NCBI GenBank assembly: GCA_028698875.1
Contig: JAQVVR010000001.1
Coordinates: forward strand, 124,001 to 188,000
DNA from: Candidatus Izemoplasmatales bacterium
Lineage (GTDB): Bacteria > Bacillota_I > Bacilli_A > Izemoplasmatales > Hujiaoplasmataceae
Length of the DNA stretch: 64,000 nucleotides
Reading direction: 5' to 3'
Shown: piece by piece, positions 13,475 through 52,688 of the stretch
Layout of the letters: every line of letters begins with the position of its first letter
How positions within the stretch are numbered: the stretch's first letter is position 1
The notes under the pieces: generated by a model
The model's input: only the letters and a program-made list of their open reading frames with translations
Database searches by the model: none
Told to the model about the DNA's origin: nothing
Translations under genes and position numbers: made by a program

Positions 13475-13527
13475 TTTTTCACATAAGACTAGCGGTAAAT
13501 AAACGCAGGCCGATGGGATGTGAGTTT

Positions 13528-16353: not shown

Positions 16354-16376
16354 TACGCCACAAAGAGAAGAAGTCA

Positions 16377-16408
16377 AAAAAAAGTTGTCATTTCGACAAC
16401 TTTTCTTT
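16377..16408. terminator. Bidirectional terminator between ruvA and ansA
   Basis: AAAAGTTGTC and GACAACTTTT with a 4-nt loop, A-rich on the left and T-rich on the right, between convergent genes. Confidence 0.85.
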
Positions 16409-16419
16409 TTGTTTATATT

Positions 16420-33769: not shown

Positions 33770-35281
33770 TTATTCGGTAAAACTCGTACCATTATACGGA
33801 TCAAATATACCAACCGTTGCCCGTAAATCTGTCGCTAGTAAATCCCGCATAAAGAAGTCAGAGGTTTGTATATTATTGCCATTTAGAAAATTATAATATG
33901 TTTTATCAAAAATATAATCAACAGCTCCAACCGTATAAACTTGACTACGATTAATTAATACTCCGTCTTTATATAATTGGCTTCCACTTACCGAAACGCC
34001 ATCATCAAAAACGACATCTCCACCAATATTATACAAATCGTATATTTGTTGTCCGGTCATTTCACAGGTTTTAATGACATTATCAAAGGGATAAATAACC
34101 ACTAAATCACCCATTGATATGTCGCCAATATCAATATTGGTTCGAAAGCCACCATTATTCACCATGCCAAAATCAAGACCTAAATAATCACGGATTACTG
34201 ATGAACCCCAAATCGCCAATTCTTGATCTTCCGAATAACGATTGATATAGCGATTTGTTGTTGCAAGCACTTCGTTTATGAAATCAAGATAAGCTTGTTG
34301 TTCAGCGTAATAATCGATTTGATCATTTATGTGAGAGTCAGTCGTCGTTAAGTCATCTTCGCTAAAATATTGGCTACTAACCCCAATGACTGAGTCCGAT
34401 ACAGTATCATAAATCAAATTGATTTTTGCGAACAAAGCGGCAGGATAACTGCTAACTTGAGCATATGGCATGTCAGCACCATCGCGAATTATAACATCGG
34501 CTAATGTTTCGTGCGTATGGCCGTTAAAAACCGCATCAACACGGTAATCGCCTGTTGAAGCAGCAATTTCCTGATTAACCCAATAACTGTAGTCATGTAA
34601 GGAAACTACTACTATATCGCAATCTTCAATCGTCCGTAAATGATATGTATATTCACGGATCGTATCAACGATATCAGCAAATTCGTAATCGGCGACCCGG
34701 GATGCAGATATTGAATTAATAACATCACCGATAATTCCGATAATTCCCACTTTAACACCGCTCGTTTCAACTATGGTATATGGTTGCGTCCAATCCATCA
34801 TTTCATCAGTTGTTTTGTTAATAATGTTAGCAGCTAAAAACGGATAATCTGCTTCGCCATTAGCTGCGGAATTGTCATTATAGGCAGCGATGACATCAAT
34901 ACCCCAATCAAATTCATGGTTGCCAATGGTGAAAGCATCAAAACCAATATAATTCATGATCTCAATTAACGGACGTCCATGATAGTAATTAGAAAATGCT
35001 GAACCTTGTAAGATATCACCACTAGCCATGATGATGGTATTGGGAACTGACTCGTTTTTATCATGCAAATATTTGCCCATTTTTGATAAAGTATCTAAAT
35101 CCGAATAGGCAAGTCCATGCATGTCGTTGATTGCATACAATTCTATGGTTTGAACGGAATTGTAGGTAATTGTTTCTGTCGTCGTTACACCAGTTGTCGT
35201 AATAATAGGTGTTGTATTGATACAAGCTAATAAAAAAATTGACAACATACTCGCAACCAAAATGACCAAAGTTTTTTTCAT
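33770..35281 (-). CDS. 5'-nucleotidase/metallophosphatase lipoprotein
   Basis: 503 aa from ATG 35281, preceded by GAAGTGAG. A lipoprotein signal MKKTLVILVASM... ends in LLAC at the cysteine near residue 20, followed by a threonine-rich linker. The calcineurin-like domain has NDMHG, GDILQGS, GNHEFDWG and NGHTHETL. The C-terminal 5'-nucleotidase domain contains GSSVIRDYLG and VNNGGFRTNI. It is membrane-anchored outside the cell and should release nucleosides from nucleotides, matching the nucleoside phosphorylase 0.7 kb away. Substrate range (AMP, UMP, UDP-sugars) is open. Confidence 0.92.
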   Translation of the reverse strand: MKKTLVILVASMLSIFLLACINTTPIITTTGVTTTETITYNSVQTIELYAINDMHGLAYSDLDTLSKMGKYLHDKNESVPNTIIMASGDILQGSAFSNYYHGRPLIEIMNYIGFDAFTIGNHEFDWGIDVIAAYNDNSAANGEADYPFLAANIINKTTDEMMDWTQPYTIVETSGVKVGIIGIIGDVINSISASRVADYEFADIVDTIREYTYHLRTIEDCDIVVVSLHDYSYWVNQEIAASTGDYRVDAVFNGHTHETLADVIIRDGADMPYAQVSSYPAALFAKINLIYDTVSDSVIGVSSQYFSEDDLTTTDSHINDQIDYYAEQQAYLDFINEVLATTNRYINRYSEDQELAIWGSSVIRDYLGLDFGMVNNGGFRTNIDIGDISMGDLVVIYPFDNVIKTCEMTGQQIYDLYNIGGDVVFDDGVSVSGSQLYKDGVLINRSQVYTVGAVDYIFDKTYYNFLNGNNIQTSDFFMRDLLATDLRATVGIFDPYNGTSFTE

Positions 35282-35334
35282 AATACTCACTTCTTTCGAT
35301 AGATATATCATAATATTATACCAGTAAATAAAAG

Positions 35335-35383: not shown

Positions 35384-38317
35384 TTACAATGTATAAAAAT
35401 CAATAATATCTAAAACTGTAGCTTTTAATAAAAAGTTTGCGGTGTTGTTATCTTCATAATCAGTACTATCAAGAACATATGGATTAAAAGGATTGGAGCA
35501 TATCGTTTCTAAATCCGGAGTAATGATATTTAGAACAATCATTGAATTTAAAACTATGCTTTGAGAACTGGTATCCAAAGATTCAACGCCGGCAAGTGAA
35601 ATCGAAATATCCGAGAAATCGGAACCCGAACTTTCTCCTAACTCATTAGCTGCGAGAATGAAGTTTCGGATTTCTTCAGCAATGATAACATCATCAACAC
35701 CATATAAATCATCAAGTGCCAAAATCGGAATATTATCGGTTATCGCACTGTTACCCTTAGCTAAATTATCAATAGTAATGTGAATTGATCCTGATTGTAG
35801 CATTTCATCAAGAGTGGCTGCATTCATACTGGCAATCGTACTGGCTGACATGCCATTGGAAAAATCTGTGAATCCAAGCAATGACAAAGCGTTTAGTAAG
35901 GCTTTTAATTCATTGAGTTCGATGAGACCTTTAGCAATTAAAACATCGTTAATCGTGACATCTTGACGCAATGAATTAGGGACAATTAAAGTCAAAGATC
36001 CTGGCGTTGCGGTTTCGCTTGTCGATGCAAAATCTAAAATAGCATCAGAAATACTGGCCCTAACGATTTCCGAAGTTAAAACAATATCGAAGTCGGCAAG
36101 GAAGATTTTTGCTGGAGTAAAGTTTTCACCAGCGAAATCAGTAATTCCCAATTCATATAAAGCTTTAAAGGCATTTGATAATTCAACAATCGTAATACAT
36201 TCGACGTTTCCAACCATTTCCTTTACCGAATCAGGGACGATTGGAAGGTTATCAAGTAATATACTAGAAATAGTTGCTTGGATAATTGTTGATTCAAAAA
36301 GTGTAGTCAGTTTGTTACTATCAAGACTGCCTGTACCATCATCTAGTCGATTTAAAATTGAAGCGGTAAAACTACTGAATTCAAAATCCTCAAAACCCAA
36401 AACATTCAAAGCATTAAACACCTTCCGGATTTCGGTGGTTTTTACGACATTAACAGTGCTATCACCCACTTCTAGATTATCAATTGAAATATTGGGGATG
36501 GTCAAGACATCAGAACCCATATCATATAATAATTTTCCAACAGTGGCACTGATTATCTCCGAAGAAAATAATGTGTCTAGTTCATTTTCATCCAAATTCA
36601 ATACTTCGGCGATTGCAAATCCAGAGCAGCCATCATCTTCTGGAGCACATGTGGTGGCATTATAAATCAACTGAATTGATAAAGCCAAAGCATTTAGTTC
36701 TTCTTTTTTTAAATAGTCATTGGCATCAAAAACCGAATTGGGAATGACTAGTCCCATCCCATCAAGATCTTGAGTTAGCAAAACTTGGGAGATGGTAGCC
36801 ACTAATATCTGTGAATCAAAAATCTTATTAATTGATGATGGCGTTAAATTAACGATGGTAGCAAGTCCAAGTTCAGTTAGTGCAAACGTATCTGACTCAT
36901 CAAAAATTGCTCCTAATGCTTCGCCAATTGCCAAAAACTCATTGGACCAATTCAAGTCGGGTGGAATGACAAAGAAGGAAGATACGGTATTATCCGGATT
37001 TGACAGGTAGGGCTCTATGAAGGCTTCACCCATATAAATCATCAAGGATGAGTTAGCCATTGAAGTAAACAAACTACGGATAAAATCGCCATCGACTTGA
37101 TCAGGTAAAGTACTCCAATCCGTTCCCTCGGCTTGTGCATTAATTATAATAAAGATGCTTTCAGCAATATCGCCAAGTGTTGACAATTCGGTTTCCCAAT
37201 CAATGGCTGCCAACTGTTCTGGCGTCGCTCCTAAATCAACATCAAAATAATCTGCCGCAAACTCAATCGCAAGCGGCATTATCGTCACGATGAATTCTGA
37301 ACTTGATACCGTTGAAAACATTGATTTTACTTCATCACTCGTCAAGTCGCTAATTTCATTGGATGTGGCAAAATCAGAATTTAAGATTATCATGATCACT
37401 TCAGAAAAAACACTCATCTCATTACGAATGGCAATCTGTTTATCAGCAAATTCAAAGGAAAGAACCATATCAAATAAGTACAAGTTAAGCGGAATCTCAC
37501 GAGTTCCCGAGGAATCAGGAATCGTGATAATGCCGGCTGCGGTCACTAAAAGATTGGACTCATATGCTGTAACCATGTCTTTCATCATTGCGATGGCATT
37601 TTCGGGAATGGCTTGATTGCCAGTCTCAGCAGTTTCTTGATAGTCTATCAATGAATAGTGGGCTTCATATAATTCCCATCGTGGAAATTCTAAATCTACG
37701 GCATCAGGTTCTGCCTCTGCTTGTTCAGGTAGAATTATAGTAACGCTTTTAACAATATCCACAACGCCACCAAACATAATTAGAAACACAAATAAAGCCA
37801 TAACTCCATTAAGTAATCCTATCAAGGCCCCAAATCCGGGATTCTTAGCGGCATGTGGATCGTGTTTTCCGCCAAAAATCAACTTGATAATCCAACAAAT
37901 AATCTTATAGATGATTAATATCACAGTAAAATATAAAATCGTGTACACAATTTTCAAAACAAAAATTCCCAGTCCACCGGCTAAGCTCATTACAGCAGGA
38001 GATAGTAAGGCTGGATCAATAGTATCACCCAAATAAATGGAAATGGCCACCGGAACAGCGGCATCAAAACTAGTAACGCTAGCAAACGCAGAATTGACAT
38101 AAGCTAAAGCGACCCCAATCTGTTCTGATTCCATAGTCCATAGCTGATTGACAACCGCATCAATGGTTATAAAAAATATGACATAAAAAATGAGCATCGT
38201 CACAAAAGTATATAAAGATTTTTTAAATCCGTGAACTAATCCTCCTAAAACACCAAGCCCGATGATACCGAAAAAAGCAATATTAAAATATAGAGTAAAA
38301 TCATTCAAGGTCAGCAT
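35384..38317 (-). CDS. CvpA-like membrane anchor with extracellular AT[IV]S repeats (short paralogue)
   Basis: 977 aa from ATG 38317, with AGGGGGTG 8 bases upstream. Four N-terminal helices (about 5-27, 29-55, 115-145 and 160-190) have the CvpA pattern: GFKKSL after helix 1 and NPGFGALIGLLNG before helix 4. The positive-inside rule places the rest outside. Residues about 200-490 are shared with the large paralogue (DLEFPR..LYEA.YSLI). Residues about 500-840 hold five copies of an 85-residue unit built on [SN]S.I..AT[IV]S, then V/IP, then an EL..A...LG helix. One copy has CAPEDDGC (CX6C). Strongly acidic, no LPXTG, no SLH. Monocistronic, with its own promoter and terminator. Function unknown. 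Confidence 0.85.
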   Translation of the reverse strand: MLTLNDFTLYFNIAFFGIIGLGVLGGLVHGFKKSLYTFVTMLIFYVIFFITIDAVVNQLWTMESEQIGVALAYVNSAFASVTSFDAAVPVAISIYLGDTIDPALLSPAVMSLAGGLGIFVLKIVYTILYFTVILIIYKIICWIIKLIFGGKHDPHAAKNPGFGALIGLLNGVMALFVFLIMFGGVVDIVKSVTIILPEQAEAEPDAVDLEFPRWELYEAHYSLIDYQETAETGNQAIPENAIAMMKDMVTAYESNLLVTAAGIITIPDSSGTREIPLNLYLFDMVLSFEFADKQIAIRNEMSVFSEVIMIILNSDFATSNEISDLTSDEVKSMFSTVSSSEFIVTIMPLAIEFAADYFDVDLGATPEQLAAIDWETELSTLGDIAESIFIIINAQAEGTDWSTLPDQVDGDFIRSLFTSMANSSLMIYMGEAFIEPYLSNPDNTVSSFFVIPPDLNWSNEFLAIGEALGAIFDESDTFALTELGLATIVNLTPSSINKIFDSQILVATISQVLLTQDLDGMGLVIPNSVFDANDYLKKEELNALALSIQLIYNATTCAPEDDGCSGFAIAEVLNLDENELDTLFSSEIISATVGKLLYDMGSDVLTIPNISIDNLEVGDSTVNVVKTTEIRKVFNALNVLGFEDFEFSSFTASILNRLDDGTGSLDSNKLTTLFESTIIQATISSILLDNLPIVPDSVKEMVGNVECITIVELSNAFKALYELGITDFAGENFTPAKIFLADFDIVLTSEIVRASISDAILDFASTSETATPGSLTLIVPNSLRQDVTINDVLIAKGLIELNELKALLNALSLLGFTDFSNGMSASTIASMNAATLDEMLQSGSIHITIDNLAKGNSAITDNIPILALDDLYGVDDVIIAEEIRNFILAANELGESSGSDFSDISISLAGVESLDTSSQSIVLNSMIVLNIITPDLETICSNPFNPYVLDSTDYEDNNTANFLLKATVLDIIDFYTL

Positions 38318-38367
38318 TACCAAAGCACCCCCTAATAGAACATAAAAACAAATATGTCTTTATCATT

Positions 38368-38395
38368 ATTATATATTATTTGAAAAAGATATCAA
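38368..38395 (-). promoter_or_regulatory. Promoter of the short repeat-protein gene
   Basis: TTGATA, 16 bases, TATAAT on the minus strand. The -35 region reads CGTTGATATCT, identical over 11 bases to that of the large paralogue, with the same 16-base spacing. Confidence 0.75.
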
Positions 38396-38469
38396 CGGTG
38401 TTTGTTTGATATTTCCATTTTTGACCATAATTAAAGTCGAAGACTTAATCATTAGTTGGTATTTAACAA

Positions 38470-38508
38470 AAAAGGGCAAGATTTTGTGTCTTACCCTTTT
38501 GAAACATA
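38470..38508 (-). terminator. Terminator of the giant repeat-protein gene
   Basis: On the minus strand AAAAGGGTAAGA pairs with TCTTGCCCTTTT (one T-G pair), followed by T's. Confidence 0.85.
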
Positions 38509-38515
38509 ACAATTT

Positions 38516-41500
38516 TTACGATGCGAGATAATTTACCAAAGTGATAATACCAGCCGCATTCAGGAAGCCATGAACAATCATATCATCCATATAATACATG
38601 TAATCAGGAATCGGTTCGTATTGATCGTTACCAGGAATCATATTATATGTATTGACTGCCGATACCAAGTCAGGAGTTATGATGTTTCTGACAATCATGG
38701 AACCAAGGATTGTAGCTTGTTGTTGCGGGGTCTTGCCTGCGAGGCTAGCATAGCTGAAGGAAGCACTTTGGAAGTCAGCCCCAACTTCTTTAGCTGCTAA
38801 GATGAAGGCCTTAATTTCAGATGCGAGAATCAATCCGGTGATATTATACAGTGTTCCTTCTACTGGGTCACCATCAACATAAGCTTCATCAGGAATGTGA
38901 GTATTGATGTTAGTGTTTCCTTTCATCATGTTATCAATGGTAACATGCATTGAAGCCGAATTTAAGATTATATCAAGTGAGGTACTGTCAAGGTCAGTAA
39001 TCGTATTGGCGCTTACTGAATCGTCGAAGCCATCAAAATCAAGAGCTTTTAATGCGTTCAGCAAGTTAATTAACTCATCACTGGTAATTTGACTGTAAGT
39101 TGTCGTATCACCGTTAACGATGATGTCAGCACGGAAAATCGTTGGAATAACAAGATCAGGATTACCAACAATGCGATCATCTTCAACAATGGCGAATTCA
39201 AGGAACGAATCCGATACGGTTGCTTGTATGGAAGCCGAACCCATGACGATTGCGAAGTCAACTTCAGGACCCCAAAGGATGTCGGTGGAAATATCGGGAC
39301 TGTCAATGTTGGATAAGCCAAGATTATTCAATGCTAGTAAAATGTTTTCTATTTCATTTGCATCAACATAAACATATTCGATTACTCCATAGGTAACGGT
39401 TATTCTAATTGGTGTATCGCCATTTTCCACATCGAAATCCGGAATGATAAGCGTGCTTGTTACTAACCGATCCGAAATCGTTGCTCGAATGCAGGCGGAA
39501 CCAAGCAAATCTGTATAATCAGTAGAATTGAAGAATTTTGATGAATCAATACCACCCGACATACTGTTCATATCGGTATAACCCATCCAGTCGAGGGCGG
39601 CAATCAAACTCTTGATTTCCCACTTTTCCAGATAATCATCGCCATAATTATTGAGGACTACTTCGGTTGTGTTGTTTTCTAAATACTTAGGAACAATCAT
39701 GACTCCCGAAAGATCAAATAAAATTTGGGTTATGGTTTCGTGCATGATTGCGGATGCTAATAATGTATTTTGCTCTTGGTCATCATTACCGATACCGTCT
39801 ACTAAAGGCGTAATCGAGATGGCTCCATCAAAACTTGCAAGGTTACCATTAAAGCCAATAAGTTCCAAAGCAGCGAGTAAACTCATGATTTCAAAATCCT
39901 CAATATATATTGTTGTTGTACCCGCATTGGTTACTTGAATTTGGATGCCAAGAACATCTTTAGTTGGAATCGTCATTTCATCGCCATCCATGGCCATGAT
40001 TTGTTGTGAAATGGTGGCGTGAATTGTTGCCGAGGCAAGGACAGTCGTTTGATTAGCCGCCCCATCATCACCAAACAATACGGTTAAGTCGATTGGTCCT
40101 AGTGTCCCACTAGAGAGATTACCTCCGGCAGGGTAGAGAACCTCAAGAGCGGTGAATAAATCGTCAATTTCTGTATCAGTAATATAAGTGAACCCTCCAT
40201 GTAATTCTTGGATGTAAACGCCAGGGTTGATTCCATCATCAATATGCCGAGTCGGAACGGTCAAGGCCGTGCCATCAAGGTTCAACACTTCACTAGAAAT
40301 GGTGGCGTGTATAATAGCCGATGCTAGTAAGATTGCTTGATTATCATTATTATATAGAATACTTAAATCAAAGGTGCCACCAAATGATAATTCGCCGCCA
40401 TCTTCATCAATGATTGCTAAAGCGTTAATAAGCATCTTGACTTCGTCAGCATAGATATAGTAATCGCTGGTCGCCGTCAAAATCTCAATGGCATTGGCGT
40501 GGAAGAAGCCTGTATCGGGAACCGTTAACGCATCGCCATCCAACTGGTGAATCTGATCGGAGATTGTGGCATGGATGGAAGCGGAATTAAGAAGTGTGGT
40601 TTGTTTTGAATCATTGTTATAAAATGATGCCAAAGAGATTTCACCATCAAAACTGGAAATATCCCCAGAAGTCATTCCCAATGAATCTAGTGCTATTAAT
40701 AAGTTTTCTAGCTCGATCTTACTGATGTAAAGGAATTCATCGGCTAAGCCGTCTTGGACAATGATTTGGACAGCATTTTCAGCGACATCATGAACAGGAA
40801 CGACAATTTTGTTATCTCCATCAAGGATCATTACTTTGCTTGAGATGGTTGCTTGAATGATACTGGATGCAATCAAGAGATTGGCATTGGTTTTACCCTG
40901 ATTGGGATTGACTTCAGTAATGCCAGTTAGATCGACATCGCCTGTGAATCCATCAGAAAAGGCCGAAGGATCATCATATCCTAAGACTTTGAAAGCAATA
41001 AGAAGATTAGCCAATTCAGTGGAATCGATGTATTCAGTTTGATCAGCACCCAAATTAACGATAAAGCGTAAAGGAGTATGATCGTCTTGGTGAACTGCAG
41101 GAATATCTAAAATTCCGGAGAGGGCAATGTTGATTACGATTCGTGAGAAGGTTGCTTGAACAATAGCTGAGGAAACAACCGTTGCAGCGTTAGTTCCTTG
41201 ATCAATCGTAGCCAACGAAACGGCGTCGGTAAAGGCAGATGCATTGATTTGACTTACTCCTAAGGTATCAAGAGCATTAAGAACAGCTGATAGTTCAGTA
41301 TCGACAACATAAGTGGTTTCGGCCCTAAAAATCCGAATCATAGTTGTTCCATCTTCCGCAAAATATGGAACTTGAACATCGCTTCCAACTCCGGTTAAGT
41401 CAATTAACTGTTTTGAAATTGAAGCGTGTAAAATTGAGGAGTCGAGAATGGTTGCCAGATTAACAATGATGTCGTCAAGTACCAATACCGATTCAATTGA

Positions 41501-44500
41501 ATCAAAATCCTCAATTTTCAAAACGTGCATGGCAATCAAAACATATTTCAATTCTTGCTTTTCGATGAAATTAAACAAATCATCATCTTGGTATGAGACA
41601 ACGCTAGAATTAAGTGAATCGGCATTTAGTGAAGGAACAACGATAAACGCTTCAGCACCGACCGATAAATCAATCATCATGTCAGAGACGGTCGCATGAA
41701 TGATGACGGAAGCGAAGAGCGTTGTCATGCTGGCATCGGACAAATTATCGTGGTTGCTAGGATCTTCCAAAGTAGTTAGGATTGTTGCATCAAGCGGTAA
41801 GTCTTCAATCCCGTTTGTGCTGGTAATTCCCAGCACTTTCACGGCTTTAAGAATTAGTTTTATTTCGTTAGCTTCAACGACGTCAACGGCTAACCCATCA
41901 ACTAAAGGTGAGACGATTATTGAAGTTGGAACAATCAGTGGAGCCCCACTCATATCGTTGATTTTCTTACCCATTGTCGCTGCTAAAATCACGGAATCAA
42001 ACATTGTATCAATTTGCTCGTCTTCAAGGGTAAAGATTTGATCAATGTCAAAATCACTCAGTGCTTCGCAAACATCATCACCAACAGCACAATCGTGATC
42101 AACAAATAAGTAATTAACAGCATTTAGCATATAGTACATTTCCAAACGATCAATATAAACGGTACCCACAAGCAATGCCGAATCCGGAATAACGATTGTG
42201 ATGGTGCCAAGGTCTTGATCAGTTATCAAATCAGAAACGGTCGCATGAATAATATCAGATGCTAAAAGTTCATTGACTATTGTCGTTGAAAGATCATCGT
42301 CATCCGGTGTGGTTTTAAGGTGATTCATCAAATCGGCATCAAATTCAATGCTACCGATGCCATCAGTACTATCAATACCAATGACCTGAACTGATTTTAA
42401 AACTTTTTTAATTTCGGCAGGAGAAACCACATTGACGCCAACTTCTTCTACCATTATTTCGATAATTACACTTGTCGGGATAACCATCGGATCGCCGATG
42501 GTCATTATCTTATTTCCCATCGTAGCCGCAAGAATTAATGAGCCATGATATGTATTCAATCCCAGCATCTTGTCAAGCTGAGTATCTGATAGAGTAAAGA
42601 GTTGATCAATATCAAAATCACTTAGGGCTTCGCATACTTCATCACCAACAGCACAATCGTGATCAACAATGATATAGTTGACGGCATTAAGCATATAATA
42701 CATTTCTTCTCGATCAATTAAACCGCTACCGACTGCTGTCAAGGCTGTATCCGGAATTAAAATCGTAACGGTACCCAAATCTTGTTCTGTAATCAAATTG
42801 GAGACAGTTGCGTGAATGATATCCGAATCAAGTAGATTACCAACTAAGGTCTCCGAGAGATCTTGATCGGTGGGTTGGGCCTTCAAATTAGCAATTAAAC
42901 CCACGCCAAATTCGATGTCTCCAATTCCATCAGTGCTGTTAATACCAATGACTTGGACGGATTTTAAAACTTTTTTAATTTCCGTAGCGGATACAACATT
43001 AGTCTCAGCATCGTTAACCATAATTTCAATAACGACGCTAGAAGGAATGATAATTGGTGAACCAATTGTCATGATCTTGTTGCCGATAGTGGCAGACAAG
43101 ATTTCTGAAGAAAGCATCGTATCCATTTGTGAATCCGACAAAGTAAATATTTGGTCAACGTTAAAATCGCTTAATGCTTCGCAGACATCGTCGCCTTCGG
43201 CGCAATCGTTGTCAATGATGATAAAGTTTATTGCATTAAGCATTTTATACATTTCGGAACGGATAATCAAATTATCTTCAATTAAATCGATAACCGAATC
43301 GGGTATGATAATCGAAACCACACCCAAATCTTGATCAGTTATGAATTTTGAAACCGTCGCGTGAATAATGTCGGAGGCAAGCAAATCCGTCATTTTGGTG
43401 CTTGACAATTCCAGGTCATCGGAGTCGTCTTTTAACCGGTTTATCATCGATGCATCCATATTTAAACCGCTTAAATCATCGGTACTAGTAATGCCGATAA
43501 CCTGAACGGCTAGCAAGACTTTTCGCATTTCAGCTTCCGTAACAACAGTAACATTTACTCCTCCTGCTAAAACCGAACCCAAAACACTCGATGGCACGAC
43601 TAACGGGTCGCCAACCATCTCATTAAGTTTGTTACCCAAAGTGGCAGTAAGAATATCGGAGGCGAAGAAAATATTCATTTGATCAGTTGTCATCGTTAAA
43701 GCTTTATTGACATCAATATCGTCAAGGGCTTCACATACATCGTCACCATCAGCACAATGATTATCAACTATCAAAAGATTTGCGGCCTGTATCATATCAT
43801 ACAATTCTTGACGAAGGATTAACGATGAATCTTCCGGATCAAGAATAGTATCTGGCATAATAATGGCGACTTCACCAAGACTCAAGTCTTTTATAAATTT
43901 GGATATAGTTGCATGAAGAATATCCGAAGCTAATAAATCTTCCATCTTCGTTTGCGATAATGCCACATCAGCAGGATCATCTTTTAGTTTATTGATTAAT
44001 GATGCATCCATACCCATTTCCGAAAGCGAATTGGTATCTGTGATATTCAAAACCCGTACTGCAAGTAAAACCTTTCGCATTTCAGTTTCAGTTACTACGG
44101 ATACAACTACATCACCTGTAGATACTGTAGTAATGACAGAGACAGGAATCACGAGCGGATCGTCAACCATATCATTTAAAATTTTTCCTAACGTAGCAGT
44201 TAATACCGTGGAAGCAAAAAAGATCTCCATGTCGTCGTCTGACATTGATAATGCTTTATCTTGATTGACAGTGTAACCGGGAACACATTCATCATCATCA
44301 GGGTCACAAACAACATTTATTAATAACAAGTATACCGCTTTTACGGCATAACGAATTTGATCTCTACTAATAAAATCATTTTCATCTAAACAATCATTGG
44401 GAACAACGATACTAATATCCCCCAAATCTTGATTTAACAAGAAATCTGATAGAGTTGCATGCAAAATATCGGATGCTAACAGCGTATTGATTTTGTCATC

Positions 44501-46870
44501 ATCTAAAGAGCCGCCTTCAGTCACTTCGAGTTTGGTAATCAGTTCTGGTCCCATTTGCATGGAATTTTCGTCAAAACTGGTGATTTCCAAAACAGCGATG
44601 GCTAAAAGGGCTTTCTGTAATTCAGCCCGAGTAATTATATCGACTTCTTGGCCACGTTTCTCTTCAGGGTAAGATACGATGACACTGGTTTTGACGATAT
44701 CAGGAATTACTAAAATATCACCAGCAAGTTCTCCAGCCATATCGGATAACAGATAACCGATAGTGGCACACAAAATGTCGGATGCAAGTAACGTCTCTGT
44801 TTGTGCTTCAGTAAGAGTTAACACATTTGCAAGATAATCGGGATCAGACTCCAGACATTCAGTGTCCTCTGGAGCACAGACTTGAGGAGTAGCCACTAAT
44901 TGAACGGCATGAATCATTCTCTCCAATTCGATAGCCTTGATATACCCGTTTTCATCTAGGCTATCAGTGGGAACAACTAACGAAAACTCCCCTAAATCCA
45001 TATCTAAAAGTAAAGTTGAGAAAGTGGCAACCAAAACGCGAGAGCTAAGAAGTGCATCAATTGCCGTCTCCGAAAAAGTACTAATATCGGATATTTTCGG
45101 ATCGGTAATATCAAAACCCGAATCGCCACTAGCAAAAACAGCAATCTCTGATAATGCTTCTAAAATTAACTGGAGTTCACCCTTGATATCGTCTGAGCCA
45201 CGCCAATCAATATCACTAGGTATTTCAATCATATCTAAAAATTCAAACCCAGAATCACCAGAAAAAATATTAATAAGAGCTTCTGTAATCAACTCTGATT
45301 CTAGGATAATTGAAAAATTAATATTGGCGGCAGCAGCAATAATCTGCCCAAAATCCTGATTCGATATGGCTCCATATGTAATACCGGAATCAAGAATCTC
45401 TTTCATTATTGAGCCCATAGCGATAAATTCATTTTGCCAATTTAAATCAACCGGAACCGTGATAAATGCCGGAATTGCATCACCGGCCATGTCCAATAGA
45501 GGTTGAGCCGCTACAACGGCAGCGAGTGTCAAAAGGCCGGAATCAGCCATCGAATTGAAGAAGTTTTGAACTAGTTGTCCATCAATTTCGACAGTTTCTA
45601 TATCAATGCCTTCTGGATTAAAAACGCCAATTGAGTCAGCAATAATCAGCATGTTGTTGACAACAACACCCAATTTATTGATTTCCAATTCCCAATCAAT
45701 GCCATATATATCAGCAATGTATTCATCATTTATAGGCACATTCGATACCATCAAAGCATATTCGATTCCCAAAGGAATCAGGGAAGTAAATAAACCCGAA
45801 TGCATTAAATCATCAAACACCTCAGTAACTTGATCTTCCGTTATTACATTAATATTTTCCACTCCGGTTATTCCCGAGTTTATTACTAGTCCAGCTAATT
45901 CAGCAAATATAGATAATTCCTTACGTAGTGAAATTTGAATTGGTACTGAGGTTTCATCTCTAACGTTGGGATTATAATCAAAAGATAAAACCGAATCAAA
46001 TAGATATAGGTTAAGAGCAATCTCCTCATTATCAGCATCAGTCATTTTCACTGAAGCGGTTGTTGTTACGATAAAATTAGAATTATATGCATCTACTAGT
46101 TCACGAATAGTGGCAATTGCGCCCGTTAATTCTTCCGGTATTACAAATTCAACTTTTTGGGGTTTTGAAATTGGTATGAGTGAATAACTGGCTTCATATA
46201 GATTGTTCCTTGGAAACTCTAAATCCACATTTTCAACAGGTAATGTGACTTCTTCTTCGGGAACAAATGTGACCAAACTTTCCGAAACACTGATTAAACC
46301 GCCAAGGATAATTATTGTCACAAAAACGGAAATTGCGCCTTCGAGAAGGCCAAAAACTCCGCCAATTAGTCGGTTCTTTGATGCGTATTTTTCGTCGATT
46401 TTTCGAGTGCTAAGAAAAATCGCACGAATGATTGCGCAAATGAGTTTATAGATTATAAAGAATATGGTAAAATATATCAAAGTGTAAGCAATTTTAACGA
46501 CAAATATCCCTAATCCGGTAGACAAAGCCACAAACTGTTGATTAACTATCATTGTGCCAAGTTGTGATCCTAAGAAATTTTCAATCAAAATCGGAACGGC
46601 TTGTGAAATCGAAGTTATTCCCGCTAACACAGGCATAAACGAACCAACTGTCGAACCAAGCCATGGCAACTCAACTATCCAAAGGTAATTGACAACCATA
46701 TCAATGGTGACAAAGAACAACACATAATAAATCACGGTCGTTATAAAAGAAAAAAGTGACTTCTTGAAGCCTTTCAAGAAACCAAAAATCATCCCCAGTC
46801 CGAGACCAGAATAAAATATGATATTGAGGTATAAAGCATAATTTAAATTCTCAAAATTAATACTGAGCAT
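38516..46870 (-). CDS. Giant CvpA-anchored extracellular repeat protein (2784 aa)
   Basis: 8.4 kb gene. ATG 46870 follows GGAGGAATTTAC; an ATG 8 codons earlier precedes that site. The first 210 residues are a four-helix CvpA-like anchor (GFLKGFKKSL, KNRLIGGVFGLLEG) as in the 977-aa neighbour. Residues about 210-600 match the neighbour's linker domain. Residues about 605-2640 contain about 23 copies of an 88-residue unit whose core is ASDI[IL]HAT[IV]S, followed by a [IV]VP strand and an amphipathic helix E[IL]..[LM]L.A...LGI. In the first half the copies alternate between two types (HATVS and ATLG/ATMG), the latter followed by a CX6C acidic loop. The last 140 residues resemble the neighbour's C-terminus (IVRNIITPDL). 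Very acidic. Likely a surface fibre or adhesin; this is inference. Confidence 0.85.
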   Translation of the reverse strand: MLSINFENLNYALYLNIIFYSGLGLGMIFGFLKGFKKSLFSFITTVIYYVLFFVTIDMVVNYLWIVELPWLGSTVGSFMPVLAGITSISQAVPILIENFLGSQLGTMIVNQQFVALSTGLGIFVVKIAYTLIYFTIFFIIYKLICAIIRAIFLSTRKIDEKYASKNRLIGGVFGLLEGAISVFVTIIILGGLISVSESLVTFVPEEEVTLPVENVDLEFPRNNLYEASYSLIPISKPQKVEFVIPEELTGAIATIRELVDAYNSNFIVTTTASVKMTDADNEEIALNLYLFDSVLSFDYNPNVRDETSVPIQISLRKELSIFAELAGLVINSGITGVENINVITEDQVTEVFDDLMHSGLFTSLIPLGIEYALMVSNVPINDEYIADIYGIDWELEINKLGVVVNNMLIIADSIGVFNPEGIDIETVEIDGQLVQNFFNSMADSGLLTLAAVVAAQPLLDMAGDAIPAFITVPVDLNWQNEFIAMGSIMKEILDSGITYGAISNQDFGQIIAAAANINFSIILESELITEALINIFSGDSGFEFLDMIEIPSDIDWRGSDDIKGELQLILEALSEIAVFASGDSGFDITDPKISDISTFSETAIDALLSSRVLVATFSTLLLDMDLGEFSLVVPTDSLDENGYIKAIELERMIHAVQLVATPQVCAPEDTECLESDPDYLANVLTLTEAQTETLLASDILCATIGYLLSDMAGELAGDILVIPDIVKTSVIVSYPEEKRGQEVDIITRAELQKALLAIAVLEITSFDENSMQMGPELITKLEVTEGGSLDDDKINTLLASDILHATLSDFLLNQDLGDISIVVPNDCLDENDFISRDQIRYAVKAVYLLLINVVCDPDDDECVPGYTVNQDKALSMSDDDMEIFFASTVLTATLGKILNDMVDDPLVIPVSVITTVSTGDVVVSVVTETEMRKVLLAVRVLNITDTNSLSEMGMDASLINKLKDDPADVALSQTKMEDLLASDILHATISKFIKDLSLGEVAIIMPDTILDPEDSSLILRQELYDMIQAANLLIVDNHCADGDDVCEALDDIDVNKALTMTTDQMNIFFASDILTATLGNKLNEMVGDPLVVPSSVLGSVLAGGVNVTVVTEAEMRKVLLAVQVIGITSTDDLSGLNMDASMINRLKDDSDDLELSSTKMTDLLASDIIHATVSKFITDQDLGVVSIIIPDSVIDLIEDNLIIRSEMYKMLNAINFIIIDNDCAEGDDVCEALSDFNVDQIFTLSDSQMDTMLSSEILSATIGNKIMTIGSPIIIPSSVVIEIMVNDAETNVVSATEIKKVLKSVQVIGINSTDGIGDIEFGVGLIANLKAQPTDQDLSETLVGNLLDSDIIHATVSNLITEQDLGTVTILIPDTALTAVGSGLIDREEMYYMLNAVNYIIVDHDCAVGDEVCEALSDFDIDQLFTLSDTQLDKMLGLNTYHGSLILAATMGNKIMTIGDPMVIPTSVIIEIMVEEVGVNVVSPAEIKKVLKSVQVIGIDSTDGIGSIEFDADLMNHLKTTPDDDDLSTTIVNELLASDIIHATVSDLITDQDLGTITIVIPDSALLVGTVYIDRLEMYYMLNAVNYLFVDHDCAVGDDVCEALSDFDIDQIFTLEDEQIDTMFDSVILAATMGKKINDMSGAPLIVPTSIIVSPLVDGLAVDVVEANEIKLILKAVKVLGITSTNGIEDLPLDATILTTLEDPSNHDNLSDASMTTLFASVIIHATVSDMMIDLSVGAEAFIVVPSLNADSLNSSVVSYQDDDLFNFIEKQELKYVLIAMHVLKIEDFDSIESVLVLDDIIVNLATILDSSILHASISKQLIDLTGVGSDVQVPYFAEDGTTMIRIFRAETTYVVDTELSAVLNALDTLGVSQINASAFTDAVSLATIDQGTNAATVVSSAIVQATFSRIVINIALSGILDIPAVHQDDHTPLRFIVNLGADQTEYIDSTELANLLIAFKVLGYDDPSAFSDGFTGDVDLTGITEVNPNQGKTNANLLIASSIIQATISSKVMILDGDNKIVVPVHDVAENAVQIIVQDGLADEFLYISKIELENLLIALDSLGMTSGDISSFDGEISLASFYNNDSKQTTLLNSASIHATISDQIHQLDGDALTVPDTGFFHANAIEILTATSDYYIYADEVKMLINALAIIDEDGGELSFGGTFDLSILYNNDNQAILLASAIIHATISSEVLNLDGTALTVPTRHIDDGINPGVYIQELHGGFTYITDTEIDDLFTALEVLYPAGGNLSSGTLGPIDLTVLFGDDGAANQTTVLASATIHATISQQIMAMDGDEMTIPTKDVLGIQIQVTNAGTTTIYIEDFEIMSLLAALELIGFNGNLASFDGAISITPLVDGIGNDDQEQNTLLASAIMHETITQILFDLSGVMIVPKYLENNTTEVVLNNYGDDYLEKWEIKSLIAALDWMGYTDMNSMSGGIDSSKFFNSTDYTDLLGSACIRATISDRLVTSTLIIPDFDVENGDTPIRITVTYGVIEYVYVDANEIENILLALNNLGLSNIDSPDISTDILWGPEVDFAIVMGSASIQATVSDSFLEFAIVEDDRIVGNPDLVIPTIFRADIIVNGDTTTYSQITSDELINLLNALKALDFDGFDDSVSANTITDLDSTSLDIILNSASMHVTIDNMMKGNTNINTHIPDEAYVDGDPVEGTLYNITGLILASEIKAFILAAKEVGADFQSASFSYASLAGKTPQQQATILGSMIVRNIITPDLVSAVNTYNMIPGNDQYEPIPDYMYYMDDMIVHGFLNAAGIITLVNYLAS
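38940..45050 (-). repeat. Coding tandem repeats of the giant surface protein
   Basis: About 23 protein-level units of 85-95 residues. Between about 41.9 and 45.0 kb they group into two-unit blocks. The second CX6C cysteine codons begin at 42068, 42632, 43181, 43733, 44285 and 44855, so blocks are 549-570 bases (183-190 codons). Neighbouring blocks are similar even in DNA; for example, an identical 20-base CATCACCAACAGCACAATCG-type stretch occurs at about 42076 and 42640. Confidence 0.85.
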
Positions 46871-46914
46871 GTAAATTCCTCCAAAAACTGTCATGGATTG
46901 ATAATATATATACT

Positions 46915-46942
46915 ATTATATATGTTTTACTTTAGATATCAA
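46915..46942 (-). promoter_or_regulatory. Promoter of the giant repeat-protein gene
   Basis: TTGATA, 16 bases, TATAAT on the minus strand, with CGTTGATATCT at the -35 region as in the short paralogue. Confidence 0.75.
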
Positions 46943-47021
46943 CGCCAGTACGCGATAAAAAATACGAATTTTTAGATATATATAGTTTTTCTATATGATA
47001 TTTGGTATAGGCGGTGGCTTT

Positions 47022-47885
47022 ATGCGAAAAAAAATTCTCGTAATTATTATTGTACTGACATCGATTTTTATTGAAGGATGCTCATTATTCCCTTTTTTAA
47101 CTTTGACTTCAAGTTATACAACTCTTTTTACACCAGTAACTAACAGCGATACCATTACTTTTTATGACGATGAATATCTTGGATATGATGACTTCTACAC
47201 TCCCACTTATGATATTACCGATGCTGATTTGTACAATGATGTTTTAATCAACACCCGCGATCTGATTCGACGTAGCAATATTGCCATCAGTGCCACGTTT
47301 TACTCACAACAGCTTGATCCTTTTGGTGTGCCTCGCACCACTGTCATCGATTCATCATTTGGATCAGGAGTAATCGTTTCGGTCGATGAAAACTATTTTT
47401 ATGCGATTACCAATTTTCATGTCGTCAATAATAAAGGAAATGAACCATTTTATTGGATAACAACATTTCAAGATAGTTACGGATCCGAAGGCCATGTTGT
47501 TGGCTTTGATGAAGAACTAGATTTAGCAATAATCAAGTTTGAACGCAATAATCGGGATAATATCCACTTAATGGATTATCATACCCGATTGGGATTCAAA
47601 ATGAATGAAGATGAGTTGGTTTTAGCGGTAGGAAATCCCAAAGGTCTTACTCACAATGTCACTTTTGGCCGATTACATTACATGACATCAATTGATGACG
47701 TTGATTATAAAGTGATTTACCACTCAGCAACTATCGCAACTGGTTCGAGTGGCGGAGCTTTAGTTGATGTCGATGGTCATTTGTTAGGAATTAACGCCTG
47801 GGGCGAACTGAATACCGATGAAGAAGCATTTGCAATTCCGGTATATATTATTTACACTTTTTTAGCAAATAACGGTTTCCAGTAA
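47022..47885 (+). CDS. Lipoprotein trypsin-like serine protease (S1, DegP-type core without PDZ)
   Basis: 287 aa from ATG 47022, preceded by GGCGGTGG; the frame begins 9 codons earlier without a site. A signal peptide MRKKILVIIIVLTS ends at IEGC, a variant lipobox, so the protein should be anchored outside. The catalytic triad is visible: histidine in ITNFHVV, aspartate in ELDLAII, serine in GSSGGAL. VGNPKG is also typical of the HtrA core. There is no PDZ domain. It is transcribed divergently from the giant repeat protein, from a gap of 151 bases, which suggests a link such as processing or shedding of that protein (inference). Confidence 0.88.
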   Translation: MRKKILVIIIVLTSIFIEGCSLFPFLTLTSSYTTLFTPVTNSDTITFYDDEYLGYDDFYTPTYDITDADLYNDVLINTRDLIRRSNIAISATFYSQQLDPFGVPRTTVIDSSFGSGVIVSVDENYFYAITNFHVVNNKGNEPFYWITTFQDSYGSEGHVVGFDEELDLAIIKFERNNRDNIHLMDYHTRLGFKMNEDELVLAVGNPKGLTHNVTFGRLHYMTSIDDVDYKVIYHSATIATGSSGGALVDVDGHLLGINAWGELNTDEEAFAIPVYIIYTFLANNGFQ

Positions 47886-47928: not shown

Positions 47929-50322
47929 TTATTTGACTTCAATAGGTATTTGCAAATCCGCTTGGCCAGCACAAGAAATTGTCACCATAGCTAATCCAAC
48001 TTTTCCTGTGGTTTTTACATATACACCTATTGATCCACCAATTAAAGCGATTTGAGTTGGCCCAATTATCGCTAATTCATCGGTAGTTGAGATGTTTAAA
48101 ACATTATTTGCATAGGGCAAATCGTTGCCATACTCATCTTGCATTCGAATTACAATTCTGGTAGCATCATATGTGTCCTGGTGACACAGTGAAGCATCAT
48201 CAGCGACTGCAGTTATTACCATTTGTGAATTCATGCCTTTGGTTACGGTTTTTACAAGAACATCATCAATATACCCTTCATATACATATTTAGCACCGTC
48301 TTCTCCCCAATCGCCTATATATTTGCCATAAAGATTTTCTGCATCTTTAAAGGTAAATTTATGAAGAATCATCAAGTTTGCCACCCGCATCTTGTCAACA
48401 AAGGGAAGACTAAAGCCATGTTTTTGAAAAGCCATCAATACTTTTTTGATCCGCTTCGCAACTTTAGGTTTATACCCTTCATTCTTCAGAATTAAGTCGC
48501 CAAAATAATCATCAACGATTATAGGGGCATATGGTACATGCGCGTATTCTTTCCATGCGGAATAAAACTTATCTATATAGTTGCCATTACGATACACCTT
48601 AATATAATCGCAATTGGTAAATATTACCGTCGCTGGTAAGGAACTTTGTGAATATTCACCCATGGTAAGATTCGATGCAACGGTTAAAACCGGGAACTGG
48701 CGCTGTTGACTAGCATAAACGCTAGCGGCGTATTTCGGAATCCGAAACATGTCCATTACTCCATGATAACAGATTCGATCTCCCGATCCAAATTCTATAT
48801 GCGTATTATAATCATTCATACACCAACCAATAGTTCCAGAAATCACATCGTATTTGAAACTGGCGTCCAATACTTTGAGGTGACGAAGTGCTTGTTCGGT
48901 TCTTTTACTTTCTGGATCAAATTTTTTGGTTGGAAAAATATGTCCGTTATGCTCAGTAATCAGATAAGGGACGCGTCTTTTAGTAATTTTGATTGGGGAT
49001 ACAAGTCCGGGATTATTGCCTATATGCGAAAAATCGTTATATGTGTATACGTGCTCTAACAGTTCGCTTCCAGCAAAATTACGAACCCCACCCGTTTGCC
49101 TTGAGTCATCAAGCTGATCAGCTAATTCGTTAGTTTTTACATAAAAATCATGGTCATCGGGAGATTCATTAATTCGAACTCCCCACAACACAATAGCCGG
49201 ATGATTGACATGATTAGTAATCATGTCGCGTAAATTTTGATAGGTTAATTCTTTAAAATGGTCATTACCAATGTACTGCCAACCGGGGATTTCTTCAAAT
49301 ACTAATAATCCGATTTCATCACATCGATTGACGAAGTGTTCACTTTGCATGTAGTGTGAAGTTCTGACGATATTACATCCCAATTCATATTTAAGAATAT
49401 CGGCATCCTTTTCTTGAATTCGCTTTGGCATGGCATATCCCACATAAGGATAACTTTGATGGCGATTTAACCCGATTAATTTGATTTTGCGATTATTAAG
49501 AACAAATCCCTCGGTGGTAAATTCAGCGGTCCGAAAGCCAAAACGAGTATGATACTGATCAATTATCACGTTATTTGAATACAAGTTTACTGTAAGAGTA
49601 TATAGATTTGGTTGATCTATTTCCCACCGCCTGATATTTTCGATTGTCATGCTGTATTTTATGATGTTTGCAAATGTTTTGCTAAATGTGTCGGCAAATA
49701 CATTTACACCATCTTTGGATATTTCAATTTTCACATCATATTGAGCTTCGGAATCTCGGTTTAAATACATAGTTAAATCCAATATCATTTCCGAATCAAT
49801 TAGTTTAGGTGATTCTAATGTTTTTACTAATCCACCTTTAATATACACCATTGGTCGGTACAAAAGCGATACTTCACGGTAAATCCCCCCATAGCACAAG
49901 TAATCAACAACGTGACCAAATGGAGGGACATTTTTAATTTCATGTGAGTCTACTTTTATGAATAAATAATTGTCTTTTCCATAGATAACGTCATCAGTAA
50001 TATCAACGGTAAATGGCGTAAAACCGCCTTCGTGCTCAACAATCATTTTTTCATTGAGATAAACTGACGCAACAGTCATAATTCCCTCAAATTTCAAAAT
50101 AAGATGTTGCCCTCGATCGGCTTCGGAAATATAAAGAATTCGTTTATACGAAGATATGAATTGATAGTCTTTCTCATCAAAATTATTATATGGAAGTACT
50201 TTATTTGTGTGGGGAATCATAACTTTTTCAAAATCAGTAAGTGGATAATCATTTTGCAGATACTTTTGATCGAAGTCATTTCGGTAATACCATTCAAAAT
50301 TGAGTTGTTCTTGTCGTCTCAT
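47929..50322 (-). CDS. Glycoside hydrolase family 2 (beta-galactosidase/beta-glucuronidase type)
   Basis: 797 aa. Residues about 1-170 are the jelly-roll sugar-binding domain (HLILKFEGIMTVASVYLN, GGFTPF), then an immunoglobulin-like domain. A barrel follows from about 280, with NRHQSYPYVG, RTSHYMQS, the acid/base glutamate in LWGVRINES and the probable nucleophile in YLITEHNG, plus GWCMNDYN. A beta-rich tail follows. No signal peptide, so cytoplasmic. It starts 2 bases after the GH36 stop, so both come from one mRNA. Whether it prefers galactosides or glucuronides cannot be told, but pairing with an alpha-galactosidase and the galK at 11.8 kb favours galactosides. Confidence 0.88.
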   Translation of the reverse strand: MRRQEQLNFEWYYRNDFDQKYLQNDYPLTDFEKVMIPHTNKVLPYNNFDEKDYQFISSYKRILYISEADRGQHLILKFEGIMTVASVYLNEKMIVEHEGGFTPFTVDITDDVIYGKDNYLFIKVDSHEIKNVPPFGHVVDYLCYGGIYREVSLLYRPMVYIKGGLVKTLESPKLIDSEMILDLTMYLNRDSEAQYDVKIEISKDGVNVFADTFSKTFANIIKYSMTIENIRRWEIDQPNLYTLTVNLYSNNVIIDQYHTRFGFRTAEFTTEGFVLNNRKIKLIGLNRHQSYPYVGYAMPKRIQEKDADILKYELGCNIVRTSHYMQSEHFVNRCDEIGLLVFEEIPGWQYIGNDHFKELTYQNLRDMITNHVNHPAIVLWGVRINESPDDHDFYVKTNELADQLDDSRQTGGVRNFAGSELLEHVYTYNDFSHIGNNPGLVSPIKITKRRVPYLITEHNGHIFPTKKFDPESKRTEQALRHLKVLDASFKYDVISGTIGWCMNDYNTHIEFGSGDRICYHGVMDMFRIPKYAASVYASQQRQFPVLTVASNLTMGEYSQSSLPATVIFTNCDYIKVYRNGNYIDKFYSAWKEYAHVPYAPIIVDDYFGDLILKNEGYKPKVAKRIKKVLMAFQKHGFSLPFVDKMRVANLMILHKFTFKDAENLYGKYIGDWGEDGAKYVYEGYIDDVLVKTVTKGMNSQMVITAVADDASLCHQDTYDATRIVIRMQDEYGNDLPYANNVLNISTTDELAIIGPTQIALIGGSIGVYVKTTGKVGLAMVTISCAGQADLQIPIEVK

Positions 50323-50324
50323 GA

Positions 50325-52688
50325 TTATACAATCCTGCTTTCCTGCTTGATATAATATACTCGGGAGCCAAAATCACCCATCAGTCGAACATTTTCGGTG
50401 TATCCGGAACCGATGAATCTTTGTTTAGGGATGAATCCATTATGATTCAAAACTTCACCGTATATTATGATATCATCGCTTTCTTGTTTCATCAAATAGT
50501 TGTTAGCCAAAATATTAAACAAAATTCCATTTGCATTAATCCGTATTGGTAATGCGTGTTTAATCAAGTCGCCAAACATGCGTAAATTAGCATATTGTTT
50601 GCGATTTACAATTCGATAAGTATAATGCTCATCAAGGGCTGTTACTTTAATCTTTTGTAATCCCCCATTTGGCCGTGCCATCAATTGGTAAACCCCTACG
50701 ACAGCTTCATCTTTTTTAGGTGAGGTCACCATCCAAATGCATTCATTGTTATCAAATGGATTAATAAGTCGAGTAAATTTACCAAATTGCAATAGTCTTC
50801 GATGTTCTTTATAAAATTCAACTTGTTGTTTGATTACCGTTTTTTCAAACCGAGAACAACGAGTCAAATCTAGTTCATATCCCAATAACCCAAAAATGGC
50901 TGTGTTAAAACGGGTTTCAATCGGGGTATTGCGAAGTGTTTGCATATTGGGCGCATAACTAACATGCGCTCCAATCGTCGAAAGCGGATATGCCATCGAG
51001 GTGCCATACTGAATATATAATCGTTCGATGCCATCAGTATTATCAGATGCCCACGTTTGGGGCATATAATATAACATTCCTATATCAAATCGATTTCCAC
51101 CACTGGCACAGGATTCAAAGAGAATGTGTGGATATTTATGATTTAGTTTCGCTAATAATTCATAAAGACCAAGCACATACCGATGATTAAATTCCCCTTG
51201 GTGATTAGCTTCAAGATTGTTTGAGAAGATATCGGAAAAATTCCGATTCATATCCCATTTGCAATAAGTAATATTCGCTTGTTTAAAGATATCGTCAAGC
51301 GCAGAAAACAGATACTCTCTTACTTCGGGTCTAGTTAAATCTAAAATCAGTTCGTTTCGACCCAAACTGGGGCTTCGATTTGGTAATTTAACCGCCCATT
51401 CAGGATGAAGACGGTACAAATTACTATTGGGATTGACTGCTTCTGGTTCGACCCATATTCCAAAATCGAGACCAATTTTGTTTATTTTTTTTGCTAATCC
51501 TGTCAATCCTGAAGGTAACTTTTTTGGATTAATCACCCAATCACCCAGTGATTGTGTGTCATCATTGCGGGTGCCAAACCAACCATCATCAAGTACGAAA
51601 AGCTCGATCCCCAATTGCTTGGCGGATCGGGCGAGTTTTAAAAGTTTTCGTTCGTTAAAATCAAAAGTGGTTGCTTCCCAATTGTTAACTAAAATGGGGC
51701 GTTCTTTGTTTTGCCAATTAGGATTGATGATATGGTTATTGATTAAATCATGAATGTTTTGACTTAACTGCGTTAATCCGGAAGTTGAATAAGTTAAAAC
51801 CACCTCTGGAGTTACAAAAATCGCATCAGGTGCCAAATTCCAATAAAAATCAAAAGAATTGATTCCCATAAGAATTCTCAACAAGGAGTGAGGAGATACT
51901 TCAGCAGAAACCTCAAAGTTACCGGAATAGATTAGTGAGAAACCATAACACTCACCAATCTCTTCATCGGTATGCTTTCGTTTCAAGGCGACAAATGGAT
52001 TGTGATCGGAAGATGACAGTCCTTTTTTTGAGTCAATTTTAGTGATGCCAAACGTCAGTTCACGCGAGTGAATATGACGCTCACGAATCCAAGCACCGTC
52101 AAGACTGAGTAACTCAAAATCGTGATCGGGAAAATCAAGATTCATACTCATTGCTTTCTCAATCATAATTGGCGCTTTTCCATTATGAATTAAGCATCTT
52201 CTGGTCAATATATCTATGTTTGAAAATACGGTATAAAACAAATCGACAGTAATATCGGCAATGGTATCAATAACCGTTATTTTTATAGTCTCGCTGGCAT
52301 CATTATTGATATCAAAGGTTTCCGGGAGGCCTTCAAAGTGAGGCTTTGCCGACAATATTTCGTGAGATAAATATTTAAAGTCTGTAACCCGTGAACCATC
52401 AGCCAACCGAAAGTGAAGCATTGGGTCTCGGAAATCACCTTTTCCAAATGTAGATATTTCTAATTGAGCTAAGTTAAGATTAAAAGTTTTATCCGTTTCA
52501 TCATAAATGACCTGAGAACCGACTTCGACAGCGAATTTTTGCTCAAGTTGTTCGATATTGTTCAGATTATGAAGTGGTTTGCCATAGTATACATGTGCTA
52601 AATGCCCAGAAGGTAAAATACGTATCACATACGAAGAGGTTATGGTTTGTAGATGGAAGACTTTTTCTTTATCCAAAAATTGAATCAT
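50325..52688 (-). CDS. Alpha-galactosidase (glycoside hydrolase family 36)
   Basis: 787 aa. The start follows AAAGGGGGAAAG. The N-terminal beta-sandwich (about 1-330) leads to the barrel with WFGTRNDD, GIWVEPEAVNPNS, the nucleophile aspartate in YCKWDMNR and the acid/base aspartate in WASDNTDG; CASGGNRFD is also present. It releases galactose from raffinose-type sugars and galactomannan fragments. No signal peptide. First gene of a two-gene operon with GH2. A possible promoter lies in the 60-base gap upstream (TGTTATATT as extended -10). Confidence 0.94.
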   Translation of the reverse strand: MIQFLDKEKVFHLQTITSSYVIRILPSGHLAHVYYGKPLHNLNNIEQLEQKFAVEVGSQVIYDETDKTFNLNLAQLEISTFGKGDFRDPMLHFRLADGSRVTDFKYLSHEILSAKPHFEGLPETFDINNDASETIKITVIDTIADITVDLFYTVFSNIDILTRRCLIHNGKAPIMIEKAMSMNLDFPDHDFELLSLDGAWIRERHIHSRELTFGITKIDSKKGLSSSDHNPFVALKRKHTDEEIGECYGFSLIYSGNFEVSAEVSPHSLLRILMGINSFDFYWNLAPDAIFVTPEVVLTYSTSGLTQLSQNIHDLINNHIINPNWQNKERPILVNNWEATTFDFNERKLLKLARSAKQLGIELFVLDDGWFGTRNDDTQSLGDWVINPKKLPSGLTGLAKKINKIGLDFGIWVEPEAVNPNSNLYRLHPEWAVKLPNRSPSLGRNELILDLTRPEVREYLFSALDDIFKQANITYCKWDMNRNFSDIFSNNLEANHQGEFNHRYVLGLYELLAKLNHKYPHILFESCASGGNRFDIGMLYYMPQTWASDNTDGIERLYIQYGTSMAYPLSTIGAHVSYAPNMQTLRNTPIETRFNTAIFGLLGYELDLTRCSRFEKTVIKQQVEFYKEHRRLLQFGKFTRLINPFDNNECIWMVTSPKKDEAVVGVYQLMARPNGGLQKIKVTALDEHYTYRIVNRKQYANLRMFGDLIKHALPIRINANGILFNILANNYLMKQESDDIIIYGEVLNHNGFIPKQRFIGSGYTENVRLMGDFGSRVYYIKQESRIV

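Follow-up and report, generated by a model that had tools for sequence, protein, structure and literature searches.

A CvpA-type membrane anchor joined to long repeat arrays in two tandem proteins of an Izemoplasmatales bacterium: candidates for a surface rod

Two tandem genes and their surroundings

The window analysed here, a stretch of 64,000 nucleotides from a wall-less sediment bacterium of the order Izemoplasmatales (family Hujiaoplasmataceae), carries two adjacent genes on the minus strand, referred to below as A and B. The open reading frame of B could encode 2792 aa; however, the ATG at 46870, favoured by homologues and by a GGAGG site lying 7 nt upstream of it, is the likely start and gives a protein of 2784 aa. 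The two genes, their parts and the flanking features are as follows.

33770-35311, minus: 5'-nucleotidase-type metallophosphatase lipoprotein (Pfam Metallophos, 5_nucleotid_C)
35384-38323, minus: gene A, 979 aa, TTG start
35387-35629, minus: A, C-terminal tail, residues 899-979 (AF2 model confidence low)
35630-36832, minus: A, five repeat units, residues 498-898 (iterated HMM, AF2)
36626-36649, minus: A, Cys loop, one copy, inside the repeat array
36833-37696, minus: A, linker domain, residues 210-497 (AF2, 31-sequence alignment)
37697-38311, minus: A, CvpA-type anchor, residues 5-209 (profile comparison, Pfam, AF2)
38368-38395, minus: A, sigma-70-like promoter TTGATA-16-TATAAT (11/12 consensus match only)
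38516-46894, minus: gene B, 2792 aa, or 2784 aa from the ATG at 46870
38519-38770, minus: B, C-terminal tail, residues 2709-2792 (alignment, iterated HMM)
38771-45064, minus: B, array of 23 repeat units, residues 611-2708 (iterated HMM, AF2 of five units)
44855-44878, minus: B, acidic Cys loop C-x6-C (CAPEDTEC), first copy
44285-44308, 43733-43756, 43181-43204, 42632-42655 and 42068-42091, minus: B, five further copies of the Cys loop
45065-46225, minus: B, linker domain common to A, residues 224-610 (helix/hairpin fold)
46226-46852, minus: B, CvpA-type four-helix membrane anchor, residues 15-223 (hhalign, Pfam, positive-inside charges)
46915-46942, minus: B, sigma-70-like promoter TTGATA-16-TATAAT (11/12 consensus match only)
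46995-47885, plus: trypsin-like lipoprotein, divergent from B (Pfam Trypsin_2, E 5e-19)

Judged by sequence, A and B are tandem paralogues with a common CvpA-type anchor, linker and repeat unit and with related C-terminal units. Their alignment spans about 895 residues with 31% identity (E 2e-103); the C-terminal half of A also aligns to the C-terminus of B (E 9e-43), and their last repeat units are 49% identical. An earlier note, made from the DNA letters, had described two adjacent proteins with the same N-terminus, the same linker and similar ends, and these alignments agree with it.

A promoter-like stretch (cgttgatatct...TATAAT) is common to both genes, which weakly suggests that A and B may be transcribed separately but in parallel; the promoter scan returned 63 sites in the region against 57.8 expected, about what chance would give. 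In codon usage B stands at the 52nd percentile of 102 ORFs, an average value that speaks mildly against a dense or abundant coat. Elsewhere in the window, at 4409-4802, there is a run of three tRNA-Arg genes, whose anticodons are tct, cct and ccg. Genes for GH2 and family 36 (melibiase) glycoside hydrolases lie next to the protease, at 47929-52688.

The anchor, its topology and its neighbours

When the profile of 31 family N-termini was compared with that of 24 canonical CvpA domains (hhalign), the match had a probability of 96% and an E value of 4e-9, so that the CvpA likeness first read from the N-terminus was confirmed by a profile check. The Pfam family Colicin_V (PF02674) is matched by 19 of the 31 at E<=0.01, the best with E 4.9e-7; A and B themselves fall below its curated cut-off of 29.3 bits (17 bits for the domain of A, 14.2 for B). 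On sequence grounds we consider the N-terminus of both a divergent CvpA-type module and do not call it a Pfam member. The likeness to CvpA/Colicin_V lies in the four-helix membrane module, the G-x3-G-(K/R) loop and the G-x3-G entry to helix 4. The four transmembrane helices are supported by hydropathy, and in the AF2 model of A they are predicted at residues 9-31, 33-63, 109-150 and 162-197 with a pLDDT of about 90 or more.

Across the 31 relatives, the net charge is +2.9 for the loop joining helices 1 and 2 and +6.0 for that joining helices 3 and 4, against -4.2 and -2.1 for the anchor segments on the opposite side; the ectodomains have a mean of -14 per 100 residues. By the positive-inside rule, this distribution, together with the acidic ectodomain, would place the repeats outside, as the earlier note had supposed for an extracellular array.

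Canonical CvpA proteins have about 160-250 aa and no large outward domain, whereas A and B carry one; the genome of the window also encodes a separate, stand-alone CvpA of 246 aa. The earlier note knew of no described system in which a CvpA-like module carries an extracellular array of roughly 2000 residues; a CvpA-type module with an outward domain as such has precedents. MarP (Rv3671c), whose outward domain is a trypsin-like protease, shares with A and B the plan of four N-terminal membrane helices and an extracytoplasmic domain behind them, and the class contains other CvpA fusions of about 570-790 aa. MarP differs in its size of about 400 aa and in its catalytic domain, while A and B carry a repeat array and the protease at their locus is a separate neighbouring lipoprotein; no peptidase domain was found in A or B with Pfam or NCBIfam. 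In these other proteins a CvpA-type N-terminus precedes an unrelated outward domain of about 400-650 residues (loci L111, L112, L115, L118, L125 and L127), with total lengths of 569-594 aa in the Haloplasma family and about 785 aa in Izemoplasmataceae.

The neighbouring genes bear on one possible role, in which anchor and solenoid would scaffold the adjacent protease and nucleotidase in a complex for envelope stress, proteolysis or nutrient processing, and would help the cell to deal with macromolecules such as extracellular DNA or to withstand envelope stress. The four-gene neighbourhood is conserved in the family of the window: the trypsin-like lipoprotein adjoins the giant gene, divergently, in 12 of 12 family loci, and the nucleotidase-type lipoprotein follows the short paralogue in 11, the contig ending in the twelfth. 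In MarP, which protects against acid, a trypsin-like domain is attached to the four-helix anchor; EHEC requires cvpA to resist deoxycholate, against which the protein protects; and Izemoplasmatales degrade extracellular nucleic acids. However, neither lipoprotein occurs at any of the 8 Izemoplasmataceae loci or the 20 other class loci inspected, so that they cannot be essential partners, and adjacency is weak evidence because the wider gene order is conserved as well (GH2 adjoins the locus in 8 of 12 family loci). We consider such a complex unlikely.

The repeat unit, its spread and its expansion

When a profile made from the units of B was iterated over the family, it counted exactly 5 units for A and 23 for B, in agreement with the first estimates of about 5 and about 23; shuffled sequences gave zero units with a later iteration of the profile. 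Unit starts are spaced by about 75-105 residues, the consensus core has about 73 residues (DNLDTLLASAILHATISNQLLDLADDGTLVVPD...TEYISKDELKALLDALNVLGITDFD), and the units of B follow the pattern LLxSxIxHATISxxxxD..LxVP..YIxxxELxxLLxALxxLGI. The AF2 model of five B units (residues 1995-2450; pLDDT 83.9, pTM 0.83) predicts for each unit two helices, first a short one and next the ATIS helix, then a beta hairpin and last the EL helix.

Foldseek returned no match at E<=0.001 in the PDB or the viral library BFVD for the five-unit model or for A, and the structures nearest to the model of A are generic helical solenoids. No consistent Pfam match was seen among 84 repeat units, the NCBIfam and PHROGs scans gave nothing useful for them, and known repeat folds (HEAT, ARM, TPR and others) gave no significant structural (PDB, BFVD) or Pfam match. 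PDB sequence searches with A and B produced chance-level matches only; the best hit of the unit profile in the PDB (E 7e-4) covers 20 residues of a designed protein. Judged against the PDB and BFVD, the repeat is provisionally an apparently new fold. The same scans (Pfam, NCBIfam, PHROGs) detected no LPXTG, SLH, cohesin or Ig domain; the absence of these signatures had been noticed earlier, and the lack of a described family for the unit also bears out the earlier note. Weak calbindin matches to the unit profile at the YIxxxEL segment are a hint of an EF-hand-like turn, and not evidence for one. Matches to DUF6438, DUF6492 and phrog_7672 were rejected, being below cut-offs or covering small stretches.

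The linker has invariant LFD, S, R, E and P positions in the 31-sequence alignment, and the AF2 model of A gives it (residues 210-497) a helix/hairpin order similar to that of the repeat unit. Degenerate repeats are a possible origin that we do not claim, the hhalign comparison with the unit profile not being significant (E 0.06, probability 0.9%). DNA binding by the array is also unlikely, given the strong negative charge of -313 beyond residue 230.

Of 90 genomes of the order, 63 encode homologues of A, among them those of the cultured strains Hujiaoplasma nucleasis zrk29 and Xianfuyuplasma coldseepsis zrk13, both of which lack a cell wall by TEM; in zrk29 the giant has 2941 aa and the short form 955 aa. 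A scan of genome contigs with the alignment gave 38 named loci. The earlier note had proposed a search for fusions of CvpA and repeats across Bacilli; the anchor and linker profile has matches in 119 of 395 genomes of the class. A giant (ORF of >=700 aa, E<=1e-5) is encoded in 111 class genomes, 70 of them outside the order, and in a phylum-level sample of 392 genomes the matches were confined to the class of the window. The giants outside the order range from about 700 to 6000 aa. A record of Haloplasma contractile (isolate B5_bin.1) has one with 12 units, and the repeat occurs in further Haloplasma-family proteins and in several other families, its spacing being exactly 91 residues in places; some class giants have no recognisable unit.

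In the family of the window the giant and the short form stand in tandem, and the short forms make up one clade (support 100/99); the pair goes back to the ancestor of this family. At the class loci L147 (1-8148, 8407-11703) and L150 (3153-6389) a giant ORF, of about 6056 aa in genome G198, adjoins a second CvpA-type ORF of about 1100 aa, and no units of this profile are recognisable. Locus L047 has two overlapping ORFs, at 6727-11022 and 11019-17339, one of 2106 aa with the anchor and one of 1431 aa with units and no anchor; this split is probably a frameshift or an assembly error in one giant gene.

The distribution bears directly on the earlier suggestion of a wall substitute, which would take the structural place of peptidoglycan. 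In favour of such a role, no penicillin-binding transpeptidase was matched in any genome sampled from the order, and the majority encode a giant. However, when the giant was cross-tabulated against PF00905 over genomes that are phylogenetically related to each other, transpeptidases were also present in 32 of the 111 giant-bearing class genomes, with both together in 6/6 Haloplasma-family genomes and in 13/13 of a further family (f7), and 142 genomes had neither a transpeptidase nor a detectable giant. The 32 genomes with both, in Haloplasma and several other families, argue against a wall substitute as the general role, the average codon usage of B also speaks against it, and we regard wall replacement as very improbable.

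The ectodomains are almost Cys-free apart from an acidic C-x6-C loop, typically CDEGDTxC, which almost every giant examined of the family of the window carries in one fixed position behind repeat unit 2 (residues about 610-725 in relatives). It is also present in part of Izemoplasmataceae and, as C-x5-C or C-x6-C, at the four Haloplasma-family loci, and is absent from the f2 loci L054-L057. The loop follows an ENGYIxKxEL segment whose resemblance to an EF-hand turn is a hint; from its sequence, it may be a disulfide or a cation site, both being possible. In B there are six loops, at residues 673, 863, 1047, 1231, 1414 and 1602, the outcome of an expansion, in this genus, of a module that comprises two units and about 184 residues: the module is present once in most relatives, twice in one congener, at least three times in the sister species and six times in B.

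Against the sister species, dN is 0.13-0.15 and dS 1.4-3.8, the larger dS values being near saturation, and there are few gaps; the resulting dN/dS of about 0.04-0.12, thus about 0.1 or less, indicates strong purifying selection on the arrays. The giants of the family have 17 to 28 units, although the 17 may come from a frame-shifted ORF, and unit number varies between genera. The repeats had been called expandable, and this is true of the Cys-loop module, which went from one copy to six, while elsewhere the arrays are collinear and strongly constrained by purifying selection. At L145 and L156, nine or more units follow each other at exactly 91 residues, which suggests recent tandem duplication there.

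These data are also relevant to a rod that would act as an adhesin or a motility leg, binding surfaces, particles or other cells. The model for such a plan is Gli349, the gliding leg protein of the wall-less relative Mycoplasma mobile, with 3183 aa, an N-terminal membrane segment and 18 repeats of about 100 aa. By description, the likeness is one of plan only: both are giant, anchored at the N-terminus and made of repeats of about 100 aa on a wall-less cell; Gli349, however, has a single membrane segment and a distinct foot domain. The difference in unit number between genera would suit this role, whereas the C-terminus has no distinct binding head, only a tail of about 80 residues, and selection is strongly purifying instead of showing the variability common in adhesins. 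Neither zrk29 nor zrk13 is reported to glide, and the description of zrk13 calls this strain non-motile. We find an adhesin or leg rather unlikely.

The staphylococcal protein Ebh is a giant wall-associated protein built of GA/FIVAR repeat modules. Like A and B as proposed here, it displays helical repeats over thousands of residues at the surface of the cell, but A and B have no Pfam match to GA/FIVAR modules.

A proposed surface rod and its meaning

The reading that we prefer, with a probability of roughly 0.55, is that A and B are outward membrane-rooted rods, probably forming a sparse surface fringe with contact or binding sites. The CvpA-type four-helix bundle would hold the N-terminus in the single membrane, and the chain would leave it after helix 4 and pass through the linker domain into the array. 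This array would be a solenoid-like stack of units (five in A, 23 in B), each folded as helix-helix-hairpin-helix, and the rod of B, whose shape is modelled on five units, would probably be tens of nanometres long. The acidic surface and acidic Cys loops may bind cations, perhaps calcium, along the length of the rod, or the loops may form disulfide-closed sites. A sparse fringe of such rods would shield the membrane and offer sites for contact or binding, and the short paralogue would be a partner or form a base layer.

The anchor, the topology signal, the unit count, the fold prediction and the conservation were computed directly. We favour the surface rod because of the CvpA relation, the loop charges, the models of anchor, linker and repeat, the nearly Cys-free ectodomains, the low dN/dS and the wide presence, and also because of the neighbouring secreted protease and nucleotidase lipoproteins and the wall-less state of zrk29 and zrk13. 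From these we infer the surface location, the rod shape and the fringe or contact role. Against this reading count the average codon usage of B and the TEM of zrk29, in which sections show a thin membrane only; judged by sequence, the CvpA module could equally well have a transport or a stress function.

Already known are the CvpA anchor, its fusion to an outward domain (in MarP) and, as a kind, giant repeat proteins at the cell surface; the combination of a CvpA anchor with a repeat array, the repeat itself and its class-wide spread were not found in the literature searched. A wider version, in which arrays of a new fold would form the outer layer of wall-less or wall-poor Bacilli throughout the class, with the giant and the short form as its two layers and with a part in arranging contact and the binding of cations, is tentative and doubtful as a whole.

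The sequences suggest that CvpA, a protein whose role is unclear, may serve here to anchor outward domains of very large size. Little is known of how free-living bacteria without a wall construct and protect their outer surface, and a conserved giant family, present in cultured strains and combining an anchor, a repeat fold that is apparently new and a conserved Cys loop, makes this question directly testable.
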